Below, one piece after another: positions 52,232 to 62,059 of a stretch of 64,000 nucleotides of DNA. The DNA comes from Persephonella sp. IF05-L8. Its GTDB lineage: Bacteria > Aquificota > Aquificia > Aquificales > Hydrogenothermaceae. The stretch is from the NCBI RefSeq assembly GCF_000703045.1, contig NZ_JNLJ01000005.1:101023-165022 (forward strand), in the 5' to 3' direction. A model generated the notes under the pieces. The model worked only from the letters and a program-made list of their open reading frames with translations. It made no database searches and was not told the DNA's origin. The translations under genes and the position numbers were made by a program. Within the stretch, counting starts at the first letter, position 1, and every line of letters starts with the position of its first letter.

Positions 52232-52636
52232 TTAAATTTGGTTAAAGACAACTTTTAATTTTAAAGAAAGAGATAAACTAATTTCATCTCTTTCGTGTAT
52301 TTTTCTTTTTATATAAGGTTTTATTTTTTCTCCATTTACGTAAGTTCCATTTGTTGAGTTCAGGTCTTCTATGAACCATTCTTCATTTTCAAAGCTTATT
52401 TTTGCATGTTTTCTGGAAACAGTTGGAAAGTCTTTAAAGATTTCGGAACCGATTGCCTGTCTTCCCAGGATGTCTCCGTTTTTTGCAGCAATTTCTTTTC
52501 CGTTTATTACAAGCTTTATACTTTTTTCTTTTTCTTTAGAAGTAGGGGAAACAACGGATAAATCTTCCAGGCAGTTCGAGCATACCGGAGCATTTTCAGG
52601 ATTTTCGGTTCCGCAAGCAGGGCATATTTTAATCAT
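52232..52636 (-). CDS. Zinc-ribbon plus FHA-domain protein
   Basis: A 134-residue phosphothreonine reader. The N-terminal zinc ribbon has C5, C8, C19 and C22 (CPACGT and CSNC). The FHA domain (about 40-132) has the conserved GR at 58-59, SRKH at 74-77 and NSTNGTYVNG at 93-102, so pThr-binding residues are intact. It is the last gene of the phospho-signalling region and overlaps the preceding gene by 4 bases. A kinase and PP2C phosphatase are encoded 7-10 kb upstream on the same strand. Zinc-ribbon-FHA proteins often report kinase activity to an effector. Confidence 0.88.
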   Translation of the reverse strand: MIKICPACGTENPENAPVCSNCLEDLSVVSPTSKEKEKSIKLVINGKEIAAKNGDILGRQAIGSEIFKDFPTVSRKHAKISFENEEWFIEDLNSTNGTYVNGEKIKPYIKRKIHERDEISLSLSLKLKVVFNQI

Positions 52637-53271
52637 TCTTGCACCTCTTTCATTATTTTTTCCAGTATTGGATATTTATCAGGTTTGACATTTCTTAGTT
52701 TTTCTGCCTTTTTAGTTTGTGAAGCTCCTATTATTGTTGCGATGGCGGAAATCAGAGCCGTAACCAATAGAATAGCAGGGGATACTTTAAATTGTTGTGT
52801 GTATGTTGTAATTGACAGAACTATTGTGATTATTCCTGTTATAGTTGCAAGTAAGAATAAAGCTATTGCTGTGTTTTTTTGTTTTTCTTTTTCTTTCAGG
52901 ATTTGTTCTGTTTCTTGTTTTAGTTTTTTAAATTCTTCCAGGCTTAGCTGGGATATCTTTTCGAGATCTGGAGAAAAAAGAGGGATATATTCTTCACCTG
53001 AGTTTGAAAGGCAGTTTATGGCTTTTTCTAATTTCAGTTCATCTATGGCGTCAGTTTCGTCCATTTGATTTATTTTATTGATTTGTTCTTTTAATTTTTT
53101 GTACTCTCTTACGGTAAGTTTTTTATCTTCTGCTTTTTTGATTGATTTTAGTATTTCAGGGCTAAAAGGGAAAACATACTCTGCAAAGTATGGATCGCAG
53201 ACTTCATCCGTTTTTTGTGCTATTTCTTTTACTTTCTTTTTTATTTTTTGCAGTTCTTTTTTGGTAATCAT
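52633..53271 (-). CDS. Unrecognised two-helix membrane protein in the kinase/FHA locus
   Basis: A 212-residue protein from ATG 53271. The N-terminal 145 residues are charged and helical, with two related segments: residues about 20-40 contain YFAEYVFPFSPEILKSIKKA and residues about 95-115 contain YIPLFSPDLEKISQLSLEEF, each followed by REYKKLKEQ or KLKQETEQ. Two membrane helices follow (about 134-160 and 166-190). The start at 53271 is chosen over 53292 because an extended -10 promoter element lies between them. It overlaps the FHA gene by 4 bases. Confidence 0.7.
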   Translation of the reverse strand: MITKKELQKIKKKVKEIAQKTDEVCDPYFAEYVFPFSPEILKSIKKAEDKKLTVREYKKLKEQINKINQMDETDAIDELKLEKAINCLSNSGEEYIPLFSPDLEKISQLSLEEFKKLKQETEQILKEKEKQKNTAIALFLLATITGIITIVLSITTYTQQFKVSPAILLVTALISAIATIIGASQTKKAEKLRNVKPDKYPILEKIMKEVQE

Positions 53272-53278
53272 TGCGACT

Positions 53279-53287
53279 ATTATACCA
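53279..53287 (-). promoter_or_regulatory. Extended -10 promoter element
   Basis: On the minus strand the sequence TGGTATAAT is an exact extended -10 (TGnTATAAT). Only seven bases separate it from the ATG at 53271, which puts the expected transcription start at or next to the start codon. No ribosome-binding site is present, consistent with a leaderless mRNA. No good -35 is seen, as is usual for extended -10 promoters. Confidence 0.55.
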
Positions 53288-53427
53288 AACATATCTATAT
53301 CTTGTTATTTTTAAATTACAAATAATTTGTTATTTTACTCTCTATAAATTCTCCTACTAAGCAAGTTATTAACTTAAATCTCAGATTCGTGATTGGCTAT
53401 TTTGCTTTATATTAAGAATTACTGTTT

Positions 53428-55662: not shown

Positions 55663-56046
55663 ATGGACTTTATTTTATCTGCAATAAATCCAAAGTATTT
55701 ACTTTTGGTGGTTTTGTTTTCAGTTTTGTTCCATATTATTCATGGTTTATTTTTCATTTCTTTTGTGGACATGTTTAAGAACACCCAAAATATAATAAGT
55801 CTTGCTATATTTTCCTTTTTTATGGGGAAATTTTTGGTTTTCCAGTGGTCTCAAACAGTTTTAGATTTTTCAAAATTTTTTGGATTTTATTCTGATAGGT
55901 TATTTTTGTTATTGGTTATAGATATTATAATTGTTCCACTTATTGTTTTACCGGGGTTTATTTCTTTTCGTTTTTCAAGACTTTATTCCCATATAGGCAT
56001 TTATCAGCAGCTTTTTAGAAGGAATTCCGACAATAGTTCCGCCTAA
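55663..56046 (+). CDS. Small membrane protein, opposite strand to the AAA+ operon
   Basis: A 127-residue protein with three hydrophobic segments (about 10-35, 42-60 and 76-103) and a basic tail. AGGAGG lies 5 bases before the ATG, one of the best ribosome-binding sites in the region, which supports a real gene. Its last 72 bases overlap the 3' end of the radical-SAM gene on the other strand, a long convergent overlap. No family recognised. Confidence 0.55.
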   Translation: MDFILSAINPKYLLLVVLFSVLFHIIHGLFFISFVDMFKNTQNIISLAIFSFFMGKFLVFQWSQTVLDFSKFFGFYSDRLFLLLVIDIIIVPLIVLPGFISFRFSRLYSHIGIYQQLFRRNSDNSSA

Positions 56047-56538
56047 AATCTGGAGGGGCTGCTTTTTGCTTTCTAAAAACTGCCTGTAATAATCCTTAAA
56101 TTTTTTGTTGAAAACTTTTGCCTTTTGATTTTCAGAGCCCTTCCAACCAGATTCTGTTTCGAGACCTGCTATAAAAGGTCCGGATATCAAAAGAGAGCAG
56201 AGCTTCTTTGTCCAGGGAAAATCTTCTAACACCTTTTCTTCCGTGTATCCCGTGTAAATGATTATGTCTTCAACTCCTTTTTTTTTCAGTTCTTCAAGAA
56301 ATTTTTTTAATTCTTCGGACTGGTCAAATGGCTCCCCTCCGGATATAGTAAAGGAATTTGATATTTTAGACAGTTTCTTGGCAAGCAATATAGGGTCTTC
56401 CTTTATTCCATCCTCAAAGCTCCATGTTTCAACCGACATGCAGCCTCTGCACCTTATAGAGCACCCCTGAAGCCAAACTCCCACTCTATTTCCGGGACCA
56501 AGAGTTTTAACCGGATAAAGCACTCTGGCTACTTTCAA
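55975..56538 (-). CDS. Radical-SAM 4Fe-4S activase-like protein
   Basis: A 187-residue protein with the NrdG/PflA-type cluster motif CxxxCxxC at C26, C30 and C33 (QGCSIRCRGCMSVETW) and SGGEPFDQSEEL for SAM binding (about 66-77). The start is TTG at 56538, because AAGGAG lies six bases upstream; an ATG nine codons earlier also exists. Either start overlaps the AAA+ gene. Proteins of this type make a glycyl radical or modify a peptide; no glycyl-radical enzyme is next to it, so its target here is unknown and may be another product of the locus. Confidence 0.82.
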   Translation of the reverse strand: MKVARVLYPVKTLGPGNRVGVWLQGCSIRCRGCMSVETWSFEDGIKEDPILLAKKLSKISNSFTISGGEPFDQSEELKKFLEELKKKGVEDIIIYTGYTEEKVLEDFPWTKKLCSLLISGPFIAGLETESGWKGSENQKAKVFNKKFKDYYRQFLESKKQPLQILGGTIVGIPSKKLLINAYMGIKS

Positions 56539-58237
56539 TTTTTTCTCCTTCCAGTTTTTCTCCAAATTTTATTTTTACAGTATCACCGGTTTTGACATCC
56601 AGCTCAAATAAAAGCTCTGATAATGGATTTATGAATATTTCCTCTATTGTGTTTCCAATTCCTCTACCACCCATTGATAGATCTTTTATTGAAGCTTCTA
56701 AGAGTTCATTCATATTTTTTATTTCCACTGTTATTCCTCTTTCCTTTTTCAGTTTTTGGACAATGTTATTTATCATTTTCTGTGCTATCTGTTTTCCTTC
56801 CCTTTCCCTTATAAAATCAAATGCCACAATGTTTTTTCCTATTCTGTTAAGTATTTCCGGTCTTTGTATTTCTTTAAAGTAGTTTTCTATTTCCTCTTTT
56901 ATTGTTTTTTCAACCTTATTAAAATCCATTGTAGAGTTTACTTTTGAAGCTCCGAGGTTTGAAGTGAATATTACGATACATTCGGAAAAATAAGCCTTTT
57001 CTCCCCTGCCTGATGTTAGAACACCTTCATCTAACAGCTGCAGCATTATATCCATTATTCTTGGGTGAGCTTTCTCTATCTCGTCAAATAAAACCACAGA
57101 AAAAGGATTTTCCCTTATTTTGTTTATCAGCTCCCCTCCGCTTTCGTATCCAACGTATCCCGGAGGAGCTCCAAGAAGTCTCTGGTCAGAATGGTCGTGC
57201 CTGAATTCTGACATATCAAATCTAATAAGGGCATCTTCACTTCCGAATACAATTTCTGCGATTGATTTTGCAAGCTCCGTTTTTCCTACTCCTGTAGGTC
57301 CTGCCAGGAATAAAACACCTTTAGGTCTTTGGGAATATTTTGAAAACTGTGCTCCTGATAGATTAAAAAAGGCTCTTCTTATTATCCGGGAAGCTTTTTT
57401 GATTGCTTCTTCTTGTCCCTTTACCCTTTCCTGTATGAGACTGTTTATAGATTTTACTTTTGATTTTTCAATACTTTCCCACGGACTTTCCTTTATTCCC
57501 GTCTTATATGTTCTTATTGCTTGAGATATGTTTTCAGGCTGAATGTTGTTTTGTTTTGCTATCTGGAATATTGATATTATCTCCCTTGAAAGCATTCCGT
57601 AAGTTCTGTCTGTTATTTCGCTTATCAGCTTTTCGTCGTTTTGTTTGTTGAATATTTCCAGTAGTTTTTTGATGACCTGTCTTCTTGTTTTTATGTCAGG
57701 TTTTTGTATTAGGATTGATTTTACGTTGGGCTTTTCAACGTAGTACCATGCAGGGAAATCCCCTTCTCTATCCAACAGATATATTACAAGGTTGTGTTTT
57801 ATACCCTTTTCAGTCTTTGTCTTTTTCGCTTTTACCGCATCTTTGAACATTTTATATAGAAACAGATTAAAGTCGTTTTTTGCTACCTCTCCCATTCTGG
57901 AGGCAAAATTTATGAGCAGGGCTATGTGGTATTTCTGGTTTTGTATAATTTTGCTTATTGTTTCATAAGATTTCTCAAGGCTTTCTTTTTTTTCTTTATC
58001 CAGAGAGCCGGCCATTTCTTCAAAGGGTTTTCTATCTCCTGCAACGTGAAAAAACCCTGAAAGAGGGGTGTATAAAACCACTTGGTCATATCTCTGTTTT
58101 TCCGTAAGGTGCCTTCCGAGGAAATCTATCAAGCTAAGGGGAATTCCTTCAAACAAAAAGGAGTCATATATATTTCCAGATAGTAGAAAATGAGCTGTCT
58201 GAGGCAGAAATAAATCAAGTTCTTTTACCCATTGCAT
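56507..58237 (-). CDS. ClpA/B-type AAA+ ATPase with degenerate N-terminal ATPase half
   Basis: A 576-residue protein. The C-terminal half (about 265-560) is a complete Hsp100 D2 module: KGQEEAIKKASRIIRRA, Walker A GPTGVGKT at 313-320, pore loop GYVGYE at 360-365, Walker B VVLFDEIEKAHP at 381-392, sensor 1 FTSNLGA, arginine finger R465 in EILNRI and sensor 2 GGRGIGN at 523-529. The N-terminal half (1-250) has an AAA-like outline, with a strand reading LLSGNIYD near 18-25 but no P-loop. There is no Clp N domain, no middle domain and no ClpP-binding loop evident. It is probably an unfoldase or disassembly motor with its own adaptor region. Confidence 0.85.
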   Translation of the reverse strand: MQWVKELDLFLPQTAHFLLSGNIYDSFLFEGIPLSLIDFLGRHLTEKQRYDQVVLYTPLSGFFHVAGDRKPFEEMAGSLDKEKKESLEKSYETISKIIQNQKYHIALLINFASRMGEVAKNDFNLFLYKMFKDAVKAKKTKTEKGIKHNLVIYLLDREGDFPAWYYVEKPNVKSILIQKPDIKTRRQVIKKLLEIFNKQNDEKLISEITDRTYGMLSREIISIFQIAKQNNIQPENISQAIRTYKTGIKESPWESIEKSKVKSINSLIQERVKGQEEAIKKASRIIRRAFFNLSGAQFSKYSQRPKGVLFLAGPTGVGKTELAKSIAEIVFGSEDALIRFDMSEFRHDHSDQRLLGAPPGYVGYESGGELINKIRENPFSVVLFDEIEKAHPRIMDIMLQLLDEGVLTSGRGEKAYFSECIVIFTSNLGASKVNSTMDFNKVEKTIKEEIENYFKEIQRPEILNRIGKNIVAFDFIREREGKQIAQKMINNIVQKLKKERGITVEIKNMNELLEASIKDLSMGGRGIGNTIEEIFINPLSELLFELDVKTGDTVKIKFGEKLEGEKIESSQSALSG

Positions 58238-58238
58238 C

Positions 58239-59429
58239 TTAGTCCTCTTTTGCCAGTTGTTTTTTGTGCTCTACAGTTTTTTCTTTTATTTCGTAATTTA
58301 TGTCTAACAGGTCGGGTATATTTGTTATCTGGGATACTATGATTCCATCTTTGCTAATCTGGTTTAATATATCTTCTTGGTCTTTGCACCATATTTTTAA
58401 CTCTTCTTTGTCTTTTATCCTGTCGTATTCTGAAGGTTGATGGTCTATTTCTCTGATGAATTTGCTTGTTATTTTTCCGTTATTTATCTTGATAGCGACC
58501 TTGTATCCTTCTTTTTTGGAAAAGAGCATGAATACACCATCTGATATTAAGGTGTATCCTCTTTCTTCAAGTTTTATTTTTATTTTTTCTTTTAGTTTTG
58601 TTTCAAGCTTTTGAATGGTTTGTTTTTCTTTCCAGTCTGAGTATTTTACCAGAAAGTCAGACAGATCCTGGACTGATAGAACAGGTTTTTCTATTATTTT
58701 TTCTGCTTCTGATTTAAAAGGCTGAGGTAGTTCCGCAGATAGGGCTTCAATCAGCATTTTTATAGCCAGACTTCTATTTTTAAGTTCTTTTTCCCTGTTT
58801 TCTTTTAATTTTTTTTCTTCCTCCAGAAGACTCAGGGGGTTTTTTTCTGTTTTTTCTTCAGTTTTTAGGCTTGAAATTATTTCTTCCAGTTTTTCTAACC
58901 CTTTTTCTTCCCTTAAAGCTTTTTCCAGGAAAGGTATTATTTTTTTTATTTCTCTTTCAGCTTTATCAATATCTTTTTCAATCAGGGATTTATCAAAATG
59001 GGAGATTTTTTGTAAGACATCTTTGCTAAAGATAGTTTTTCCTTCTTTTATTGTTTCTATTTTTTTTAGTATTTTTTCTATATTCTTTCTTTTTTCTTCA
59101 ACGAAGGCTTTTTCTTTTTCTATCAGGTTTAGTATCTCTTTTATATAATATTCTGCTCCGTGAAAAATTCTGATAAACGGGTCTTTTCGAAGATGAATTT
59201 TCATTTCTGTATAATAATAAGGAGTGTTTTCGCTCAGCATTGACCAGAGGTCTTCACGGGCCTTTTCTATTTCTCTGATGACATTTTTTCTTCTTTTTTC
59301 TTCTCTTATTTCTTCAGCCTTTTCCAGCAGTAGTTTGTACATGTTATCAATTACTTTTGCAGCTTCTCTTTTTTTCTGGTTATATTCTTCTTTGTTGACT
59401 TTTATTTGAAATGCAGAAACTGAGCTCAT
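58239..59429 (-). CDS. Long coiled-coil protein of unknown function
   Basis: A 396-residue protein. Residues about 10-290 are almost entirely charged alpha helix with coiled-coil pattern (KEEYNQKKREAAKVIDNMYK, EKLEEIISSLKTEEKTEKNP). Residues about 295-380 form a compact alpha/beta domain (YTLISDGVFMLFSKKEGYKV, AIKINNGKITSKFIREIDHQ). It lies between the PP2C and AAA+ genes with 1-base gaps, so it is clearly part of the operon and a candidate substrate or adaptor of the AAA+ motor. No family recognised. Confidence 0.75.
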   Translation of the reverse strand: MSSVSAFQIKVNKEEYNQKKREAAKVIDNMYKLLLEKAEEIREEKRRKNVIREIEKAREDLWSMLSENTPYYYTEMKIHLRKDPFIRIFHGAEYYIKEILNLIEKEKAFVEEKRKNIEKILKKIETIKEGKTIFSKDVLQKISHFDKSLIEKDIDKAEREIKKIIPFLEKALREEKGLEKLEEIISSLKTEEKTEKNPLSLLEEEKKLKENREKELKNRSLAIKMLIEALSAELPQPFKSEAEKIIEKPVLSVQDLSDFLVKYSDWKEKQTIQKLETKLKEKIKIKLEERGYTLISDGVFMLFSKKEGYKVAIKINNGKITSKFIREIDHQPSEYDRIKDKEELKIWCKDQEDILNQISKDGIIVSQITNIPDLLDINYEIKEKTVEHKKQLAKED

Positions 59430-59430
59430 T

Positions 59431-60081
59431 TTAAACCTCTGCTATTATAAATGTGGTATTGTCATATAGGTTTTTTGTTTTTAACTTTTGCATTATATTT
59501 GAAACTGTTTTTTCAATATTTTCCTCGAAAATATCTTCCAGCTCCTGTTCTTCAAATACACTGTAAAATCCATCTGTGGCAATCAGGAATATTCCTTTAC
59601 TTGTTTCTCGGATAAATATTTCAGGGGTTGTGTCCGTTCCTACTGCTGAGTATAGAACTCCGTTTTTAGAATGGTCAAATGAAAGTATTCTTAGAAATTT
59701 TCCTGCCTTTTTGTAAACCCTGCTATCTCCACAGTTGAAGACGGTAATTTTATCACTTTCCATTTTTATCCCAGCTACCGTTGTTGCCATTCCGTTTAGC
59801 GAAGGGTCTTTTTCTGCAAGTTTTTTTAATTTTTCTTTTGCTCTAAAAATTGCCGCCTCTATATCCAGATTTTCAAAATCTGCCAGTGTTTCCAAAACGG
59901 ATTTTGATGCCACTTCTCCTGCTGCAGCTCCACCGACTCCATCTGCAACCGCAATTATTTTTGAAGGTGCTGATTCTCTCGGCTTTTCCATATCTTCCTG
60001 AATAACTTTTTTATCTATGAGTAGAGCATCTTCGTTTTTATCCCTGTAGTTTCCTCTATTAGTGAAGTAGAACGCCTTCAT
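59431..60081 (-). CDS. PP2C-type protein serine/threonine phosphatase
   Basis: A 216-residue stand-alone PPM/PP2C domain. Metal and catalytic motifs are intact: NYRDKNEDAL (N16, E17, D18), VADGVGGAAAGE with D47, GMATTVAG, CGDSRVYK, IATDGFYSVF and the late YDNTTFI. It overlaps the kinase gene by 23 bases, so the two are translated together. It presumably reverses phosphorylation by the kinase and resets the FHA reader. Confidence 0.93.
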   Translation of the reverse strand: MKAFYFTNRGNYRDKNEDALLIDKKVIQEDMEKPRESAPSKIIAVADGVGGAAAGEVASKSVLETLADFENLDIEAAIFRAKEKLKKLAEKDPSLNGMATTVAGIKMESDKITVFNCGDSRVYKKAGKFLRILSFDHSKNGVLYSAVGTDTTPEIFIRETSKGIFLIATDGFYSVFEEQELEDIFEENIEKTVSNIMQKLKTKNLYDNTTFIIAEV

Positions 60082-62059
60082 CTTTAAGAAACTCCTCCAG
60101 TGATTCTATGTGGTTTATGAAATGGGACCACTGGTCTATTTTCACCTTGTAAGAGTTCTTTTCCTTTTTTTGTTCTATTAGCTCCAGTTCCCCCATTGGA
60201 ACTACGTAGCCCGCTTTGTCCAGTTCTTTTAGTTTATTTTTTACTCTGTTTATTCTTTCCCTTTCGAGAGCTTCCCATTTTATTCCTGTTTTTTCAACTA
60301 AAACCATAGCAGACACTGCGTCTATCAAATCTTCAATTTTGTCTGATTTCCCTTTCCATGCAGCAAGTGCTATTTCAAACGGATAAAGGTGTGTTTTAAC
60401 TTTTAGGTTTTTAATAATAGGTTGGGCATTTTCAAGGTAATTTTTATCCTTTCTTACAAGTTCGACGACTTTCTGATAGTGGAACATATCTATGTTCTCA
60501 AAATTCTCTTTTTTTAATAGCTTTCCTGTTATTCTTTCAAAGTGTTGAGAGAAAAACTCAAACTCTTCTTTTGTTAAGGGGTTTTCAAGTACTTTGATAA
60601 AGCTTTTTCTAGAGAAGTCCAATCTTCTGGTAACCGCAAAGTTTTCTGAAACCATAGAAGCAAATAGATGTAATGCTTTTGTTTTAGATTCTAAAGCTTC
60701 CTCGGCTTCAAGAAATTTATTTGCCATAAAACTAAGGAACTCTCCATCTTTTGTGTATTTAACCAGTTTTTCAAATTTTTTCAGGTCTTTTTTATTTTCT
60801 GATATCAAAAGAGCAGAAAGGGGATTAGGTTTAGAAAGCCCTTTTATTGCAGAAAGGGTGTCTTCAAAAAGCTCAGAGAGGTTTATCTTGTTTCCATAAG
60901 GCTTTATTTCCAGTGATGGGGCTATTGTATGGATTATTTCTACAAGGGCTATTTCAGGGTCTTTTTCATTTTCCAAAATTTCCCATACCCTGGTGTCCAA
61001 ATCAAGTTGTTTATTTTCTTTAAGAAGTGTATTTAGATGTCCTCTCTGGACAAAAGAAACTGCATATTTAAAGGTTTCTTCATTTGCCTGCATTGCTCCT
61101 GCGAGTTCTTCAAGTGAGCTGTATTCCTTGTTGTTAAACAGGTATCTTCCAGATGTTACTTTTTCTTCATAAAATACACTTGGGATATTTCCCGAAAGCC
61201 ACAGGTCAACTTCTTTTGCACCCCATCTTTTCCTCCTGTTTTGAGTTAATAGACCTTTTAGGAGGGTTTTGACATCTTCGTCTAATTCTTTTGGAATTGG
61301 GACTTGCTCGGATGTTATCTTAAACATCACCGTTTTTGGGTCTAAACCCTTAAAAGGATTTTTGTTTAGAATGTCTAAAATTACCATTCCAAATGACCAG
61401 TAGTCTGCTTCCTTTCCCATTATTCCTGAGAAACTTTCAGGAGCAGAGTAAACAGGAGTTCCTTTTACTGTTGTTATTTTCTTTGAAAATTCATCATCCA
61501 ATAAAGAGGATATACCAAAATCTGTTATTACCAGATTTAGAGGATTTTCCTCTTTAACCAGAATATTTGAAGGCTTAATATCCCTGTGGATTATGTTTAA
61601 AGAATGTAGAGCTTTTAGAATCTGGTTTATTTGGTCTATTATCTGTATTAAAAGATTTTTATTGGGTGTTTTACCTTTCAGGAAGTTTTTAATATTTCCG
61701 TTTTTCATGTATTCCTGTATTTCGTAAAATCTGCCTGTTTCTTTGTCTATGCCAAAATCAAGTATTTTTACCACATCGTTTGGTAATTTTTCTCCGACCT
61801 CTTTGATTTTCTGAACGACTTCTATTTTGGGGATTATGCCTTTTCTATAGAGTTTCAAAAGCGTGTTATTTTCAAGGAGAAAAAGGTCAGCTTCCCCACC
61901 TTCTGCTTCAAACTCTTTTACAATTTTCAACCCCTGGAACTGCTTTATAGATGCAGAAGATTTTTCGACCGGAGCGTTTTCAACAATTGTTACCTCAGGT
62001 GTTTCAACAACTGTTTTCTGTTCTTCAACTATGGTTTTTTCAAAAATTGTTTTTTCCAT
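60059..62059 (-). CDS. Hanks-type Ser/Thr protein kinase with N-terminal TxxE repeats
   Basis: A 666-residue protein. The N-terminal tail has four TIFE/TIVE/TVVE/TIVE units at T4, T9, T16 and T24. The kinase domain spans about 45-300: a loose glycine loop (EFEAEGGEADLF), Lys69 in LLKLYRK, catalytic HRDIKPSN (158-165), DFG (180-182), an activation loop with T196, T197, T201, and APE (206-208). The remaining 350 residues (300-666) are helical with no known domain; no membrane segment or PASTA repeats are present. ATG 62059 has AAAAGG nine bases upstream. First gene of the operon. Confidence 0.92.
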   Translation of the reverse strand: MEKTIFEKTIVEEQKTVVETPEVTIVENAPVEKSSASIKQFQGLKIVKEFEAEGGEADLFLLENNTLLKLYRKGIIPKIEVVQKIKEVGEKLPNDVVKILDFGIDKETGRFYEIQEYMKNGNIKNFLKGKTPNKNLLIQIIDQINQILKALHSLNIIHRDIKPSNILVKEENPLNLVITDFGISSLLDDEFSKKITTVKGTPVYSAPESFSGIMGKEADYWSFGMVILDILNKNPFKGLDPKTVMFKITSEQVPIPKELDEDVKTLLKGLLTQNRRKRWGAKEVDLWLSGNIPSVFYEEKVTSGRYLFNNKEYSSLEELAGAMQANEETFKYAVSFVQRGHLNTLLKENKQLDLDTRVWEILENEKDPEIALVEIIHTIAPSLEIKPYGNKINLSELFEDTLSAIKGLSKPNPLSALLISENKKDLKKFEKLVKYTKDGEFLSFMANKFLEAEEALESKTKALHLFASMVSENFAVTRRLDFSRKSFIKVLENPLTKEEFEFFSQHFERITGKLLKKENFENIDMFHYQKVVELVRKDKNYLENAQPIIKNLKVKTHLYPFEIALAAWKGKSDKIEDLIDAVSAMVLVEKTGIKWEALERERINRVKNKLKELDKAGYVVPMGELELIEQKKEKNSYKVKIDQWSHFINHIESLEEFLKDEGVLLH

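Follow-up and report, generated by a model that had tools for sequence, protein, structure and literature searches.

What do four repeated threonine units at the N-terminus of a bacterial kinase do, and which protein might read them? This question is raised by a locus in a 64,000-nucleotide stretch of the Persephonella sp. IF05-L8 genome, hereafter called the window. The initial annotation placed four TxxE units in the first 27 residues of the kinase and proposed that they are docking sites for the FHA protein encoded at 52232. We found all four units exactly where it had put them. The kinase and its units are located as follows.

60059..62059, minus strand: Hanks-type Ser/Thr kinase, 666 aa (Pfam PF00069, 2e-34)
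62039..62050, minus strand: repeat unit 1, TIFE, T4-E7
62024..62035, minus strand: repeat unit 2, TIVE, T9-E12
62003..62014, minus strand: repeat unit 3, TVVE, T16-E19
61979..61990, minus strand: repeat unit 4, TIVE, T24-E27 (TIVK in the orthologue of genome G006)

The kinase N-terminus reads MEKTIFEKTIVEEQKTVVETPEVTIVENAPVEKSS (ORF 60059-62059, minus strand), and the start of this ORF is MEKTIFEKTIVEEQKTVVETPEVTIVEN. TIFE, TIVE, TVVE and TIVE all fall inside residues 1-27 (window 62059-61979, minus strand), and they are the only T-h-h-E matches across the entire 666-aa kinase. When residues 1-27 or 1-40 were shuffled 200,000 times with their composition preserved, no shuffle reached four units. 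When the +3 residue was left free in the repeat test, the p-value of the tail was 0.0002. An AGG lies upstream of the kinase ATG at 62059 at a plausible spacing. The start at 62059 is also supported by the comparison with the kinase of another Aquificota genome (G002), because conservation begins only after this Met and none is found in the residues upstream.

Residues 1-40 of the kinase form a disordered tail, and its C-terminal part is helical. In the AlphaFold2 model, residues 1-36 have a pLDDT of about 30 and the tail contains no ordered strand; the window tail is predicted to be disordered. The motifs of an active kinase are intact (the LLKLY lysine, HRDIKPSNIL and ITDFGIS). Repeated Thr units with a fixed +3 residue in a disordered kinase segment, as found here, are the marks of a multi-site FHA-docking segment such as the MST2 linker bound by SLMAP.

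The kinase belongs to a gene cluster whose minus-strand order is kinase, PP2C, coiled-coil, AAA and radical SAM, with the genes of a protein with predicted membrane segments and of the FHA protein about 2.7 kb past the radical SAM gene. These members of the cluster are listed below.

59431..60081, minus strand: PP2C phosphatase, 216 aa (Pfam PF00481, 6e-11); its frame shares 23 bases with the end of the kinase frame
58239..59429, minus strand: coiled-coil protein, 396 aa, present in other loci of the system
56507..58237, minus strand: AAA+ ATPase, ClpB D2-like (AAA_2, 6e-51); its N-terminal domain is the marker of the system
55975..56565, minus strand: NrdG-like radical SAM protein, 196 aa (Fer4_12, 7e-25)
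52633..53292, minus strand: protein with predicted membrane segments, weakly SLATT-like; its frame shares 4 bases with the FHA gene
52232..52636, minus strand: zinc-ribbon FHA protein, 134 aa (PF00498, 7e-18), the proposed tail reader

The genome holds one FHA domain, two PP2C matches and one Hanks kinase above the Pfam cut-off; this kinase is the window kinase, the only PF00069 match above that cut-off, so the single FHA domain and the single above-cut-off kinase both lie in this cluster. The kinase/AAA/radical SAM system is accessory, and the AAA N-terminal domain occurs in 6 of 136 Aquificota genomes. Using PADLOC, the window proteins gave generic kinase and AAA matches only, and no complete known anti-phage system was matched. 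No DUF4011 helicase is found in the window cluster. A vWA domain, by which an ArnA/ArnB module would be recognized, is absent from all nine cluster proteins. The cluster includes an NrdG/activase-like radical SAM protein, and we found no glycyl-radical enzyme encoded by its genes. A radical SAM protein of this type is linked to an AAA+ ATPase across many phyla.

The SLATT_1 match of the protein at 52633-53292 has an E-value of 0.0034 and does not reach the cut-off. Its gene adjoins the FHA gene in G006 and G002 too, and in this genus the protein might serve the cluster as a membrane effector.

The FHA protein appears able to read phosphothreonine. The residues of the pThr site are kept (R59 in GR59, S74, H77 and N96), and the residue at the position of Rad53 Arg83 is T72. 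The model of the FHA domain has a pLDDT of 93 and matches solved FHA domains, the closest fold being the DgcB FHA domain of Bdellovibrio. The latter has been solved with the peptide NSDNLEKpTSIVASDT, in which pThr and +3 Val point into two pockets, and the -2 and -1 residues are Glu and Lys (PMC6733907). The EK-pT-SIV segment of DgcB is like the window units in its pattern of -2 Glu, -1 Lys and +2 Ile; however, DgcB has one site, in an N-terminal phospho-tail of the FHA-bearing protein itself, and its +3 residue is Val, not Glu (PMC6733907). The window units EKTIFE and EKTIVE are identical to the DgcB peptide at -2 and -1.

GarA and OdhI are small FHA proteins that have a Thr motif ahead of the FHA domain and are controlled by Hanks kinases. 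They differ from the window FHA protein, in whose linker the [DE]-x-T-[ILV] motif is absent, and the enzymes they target and the families of their kinases are different. A single [DE]-x-T-[IV] motif, as in GarA and OdhI, was observed in the zinc ribbon-FHA linker of five other loci (L043, L046, L054, L096 and L138). Among the relatives, the GarA-like linker motif was weakly enriched (10 vs 4.9 expected; 12/500 shuffles).

We then compared the kinases of the phylum, a check that the initial annotation had proposed and that the repeats passed. Units were retained in five of five Aquificota orthologues, with variation in number, spacers and length, and are found again in loci of Nitrospirota and Clostridia that share the gene set. 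In the G006 kinase (97% identical) the fourth unit is TIVK, which indicates that one unit is dispensable. The G002 kinase (75% identical) keeps all eight T and E positions, while 7 of the 15 other positions have changed. The units of G033 are RTILE, KTIFE, RTVLE, KTIIE and KTIIE, and those of G027 and G020 are DKTVIE, DKTVVN, DKTVIN, DETVIE and similar. In G002 the FHA gene immediately precedes the kinase, and in G033 it immediately follows the radical SAM gene.

The disordered tail, the variable unit number among orthologues and the fourth Glu lost in G006 could be taken to mean that the repeats are functionless low-complexity drift. However, several phyla show the register again although the spacers have changed, the shuffles fail to give repeats, and G002 retains every T and E position. 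Drift is hardly credible on this evidence.

Two side observations were also made. In G006 (L025:6337-7535) the coiled-coil gene lies in two frames, a possible frameshift. In two Persephonella MAGs (L046:6988-9200 and L047:9899-12190) a radical SAM-FHA pair is followed by a predicted membrane protein, mechanosensitive-channel-like, and no kinase, PP2C or AAA is found close to this pair.

To explore the system beyond Aquificota, we kept 80 loci from 517 radical SAM relatives found by alignment search in reference genomes of many phyla. The same gene set (kinase, PP2C, ClpB-like AAA, NrdG-like radical SAM and zinc-ribbon FHA protein) was found in many phyla. A tblastn search with the AAA N-terminal domain also gave matches on plasmids of Rhizobium, Caballeronia and Aristaeella. 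Other searches were less productive. With the kinase as a single-protein query against genome contigs no relative was found, and in single-motif DNA searches the reversed control gave as many matches or more. Neither the triple-motif scan nor the AAA scan detected anything in viral contigs, and phage records gave no match.

The loci take two forms. In the separate form, found in Aquificota, Nitrospirota, Synergistota, Clostridia and others, the kinase, the FHA protein and usually the PP2C are distinct genes. The FHA partner is encoded with the kinase in the window, G006, G002, G033 and most separate-kinase loci, and the catalytic residues of separate-form kinases are intact. In the fused form, found mostly in Pseudomonadota, the kinase is joined to a DUF4011 helicase that also has an MTES_1575 nuclease domain, and FHA and PP2C are missing. 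Where its motifs are readable, the fused kinase has Thr for the catalytic Lys, HRDxR for HRDxK and GFG or SFG for DFG; by these motifs it is predicted to be a pseudokinase. The fused form is a single clade on the AAA tree, sister to the separate form, so the loss of repeats, FHA, PP2C and catalysis counts as one event.

Fused loci (L037-L039, L061-L062, L066-L069 and others) contain DUF4011/AAA_11/AAA_12 helicase and MTES_1575 nuclease domains with N-terminal zinc ribbons. The helicase that adjoins or is fused to the system in Clostridia and Pseudomonadota matches the PADLOC models PDC-S37 and Hhe. These candidate defence proteins (DUF4011 helicase, MTES_1575 nuclease) match the helicase of the relatives, but none lies beside the window cluster.

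The two forms allowed a test of the repeat itself. With the +3 residue free, a T-x-h-Z repeat at p < 0.01 was found in 12 of 38 separate-kinase tails versus 0 of 39 fused ones, and the other 26 separate tails fail this threshold singly. The anchor is specific for Thr: any other residue in its place gave at most 1 of 38 separate tails, and Ser gave 0. When the offset from Thr was scanned, seven tails were found at +3 and only 0-2 at +1, +2 and +4 to +7. Similarly, in 19 tails not called by the repeat, acids at Thr+3 were in clear excess (37 vs 15.7 expected, Poisson 3e-6), whereas acids at Ser+3 were not (8 vs 14.4 expected) and other Thr offsets showed no excess. The anchor and offset scan and this acid count are the fair tests of the Thr anchor. 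A scan of all 1,161 ORFs of the loci, regardless of gene type, gave 21 with at least three units in 70 aa, and 12 of these 21 are separate-kinase tails.

Four FHA-bearing loci (L057, L064, L132 and L135) have a readable tail and no T-h-x-acid unit, so we rejected the view that repeats occur in all such loci.

The two beta-branched hydrophobics of the Aquificota and Nitrospirota units (TIVE, TVVE) might suggest a phospho-independent contact or zipper, that is, a beta-strand or amyloid-like signalling motif built on the hydrophobic pairs. However, units from elsewhere have a polar or charged residue at +1 or +2 (TSLM, TELM, TQIN, TLRE) and still keep Thr and the +3 residue, in a comparison that used tails picked by T-x-h-Z repeats and whose Thr/Ser ratio is partly circular. 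The structural model of the tail also predicts no ordered strand. We consider a zipper very unlikely. An amyloid-like motif as such was rejected, since +1 and +2 are not kept hydrophobic.

The +3 residue (Z) is constant within one protein but differs by clade, being Glu, Asn or Met. Aquificota and Nitrospirota have Glu at this place; L040 (KTIFN, ETVLN, ETIIN), L085, L133 and L136 have Asn; and L078 (TELM, TSLM, TSVM, TEIM, TSIM), L131 and L134 have Met. L131, L133, L134 and L136 were retrieved after the pattern was noticed, and all agreed with it. The FHA residue two places before the conserved Ser (Ser-2) varies too: E/D-type loci have T, S or A there, whereas N- and M-type loci have F or Y. 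This column was mapped to Rad53 Arg83 through an ungapped 79-residue profile match to 1g6g and the residue numbering of Rad53. In Rad53 FHA1, the +3 specificity is set by the loop before the conserved Ser, and Arg83 selects Asp (PMC4037201). On the AAA tree, two changes suffice to explain the E/N/M differences, and the replacement of Thr by an aromatic residue is confined to a single clade of Clostridia, so the covariation represents one or two events. In a wider sense, the tails may hold an evolvable docking code in a widespread kinase-FHA-PP2C system, where all units of a tail switch +3 together with the cognate FHA pocket and so keep pairs specific between genomes. Such a code might equally well prove right or wrong.

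The repeats could also be autophosphorylation sites acting inside the kinase, through autoinhibition, dimer contact or tuning of activity, while the FHA domain reads something else. Repeat-bearing kinases have intact active-site motifs, so the tail can be a substrate, and some loci pair repeats with a degenerate FHA. For instance, L078:9652-10011 encodes, at the FHA position, a zinc-ribbon protein without the GR and SRxH part, and the kinase tail there keeps five clean TxxM units. However, autophosphorylation alone would accept Ser, whereas the Thr-only anchor and constant +3 residue fit FHA reading, and the identity of the +3 residue shifts along with the FHA position. A purely internal role is therefore improbable.

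We propose that the kinase tail offers several pThr sites as ligands for docking of the co-encoded FHA adaptor. This is the best explanation and a rather probable one, because of the Thr-only anchor, the +3 register, the absence of repeats from the fused form, the match between +3 and Ser-2, the single FHA domain and kinase of the genome and the DgcB precedent. The docking proposed in the initial annotation is thus supported at the level of sequence: the pThr residues of the FHA protein are intact, it is the only FHA protein in the genome, and the +3 residue and the FHA position change together.

The mechanism may be as follows. The tail is likely to be phosphorylated by the kinase itself, because no other Hanks kinase of the genome exceeds the cut-off. 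The kinase would phosphorylate the threonines of its own [D/E]-K-T-[I/V]-[I/V]-E units, probably in trans within a dimer or cluster. We infer that the FHA domain would then bind pThr and read the +3 Glu, with a further contact to the acidic -2 residue. Multiple units may give avidity or a graded response, and with several units the number of FHA adaptors on the kinase is proposed to report past kinase activity. The zinc ribbon could relay the signal to another cluster member, either the AAA/radical SAM part or the membrane protein. Finally, the co-encoded PP2C may strip the phosphates and reset the switch, as suggested by gene linkage and co-loss.

FHA docking to phosphorylated kinases is already known. 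The MST2 linker has several autophosphorylated TM sites bound by the SLMAP FHA domain, which brings PP2A (PMC5663475). By analogy, SLMAP-MST1/2 (Hippo, STRIPAK) would resemble the proposed window system in having Thr units in a flexible kinase segment, an FHA adaptor and a phosphatase tied in (PMC5663475). However, it is eukaryotic, its pT-M units make their main contacts at -2 and +1, its linker is C-terminal to the kinase domain, and its phosphatase is PP2A in STRIPAK rather than PP2C; no homology of the tails is claimed. The same parallel raises the alternative that the FHA protein may dock the units as a feedback inhibitor that brings PP2C to the kinase, and not as a forward adaptor. This is a variant of the docking explanation and does not exclude it. 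In Hippo, recruitment of PP2A by SLMAP on the MST2 linker switches the kinase off (PMC5663475), and in the window the PP2C frame overlaps the kinase frame. However, there is no sign of a PP2C-FHA contact, and the zinc ribbon could bind any partner. Feedback inhibition is possible but somewhat doubtful.

Other systems resemble the docking of an FHA adaptor in part. Sulfolobus ArnA, like the window FHA protein, combines a zinc finger or ribbon with an FHA domain, and by sequence it is one of the two solved structures that match best. In the Arn circuit the Hanks kinase ArnC makes several pThr, and a phosphatase takes part, but the phosphorylated ligand there is ArnB, a vWA protein, rather than the kinase (PMC12852372). 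MupFHA and PknQ of Mycobacterium ulcerans are a plasmid-borne pair in which the FHA protein binds its own kinase and autophosphorylation is lowered, but docking is reported at the activation loop and not at a repeated tail (PMC4238996). In the literature searched, we found no description of the kinase/AAA/radical SAM cluster, and none of a kinase tail in it whose repeated units have a +3 residue that differs by clade.

FHA domains and Hanks kinases are common in bacteria, yet only a few pairs of kinase and reader are understood. In this system a candidate ligand can be read from the sequence, and with one above-cut-off kinase and one reader in the genome this signalling system is directly testable. 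The natural +3 variants, Glu, Asn and Met, are ready-made specificity swaps. The repeats also give a handle on a multi-phylum kinase/AAA/radical SAM cluster; its relatives encode a helicase-nuclease that is akin to candidate defence proteins.
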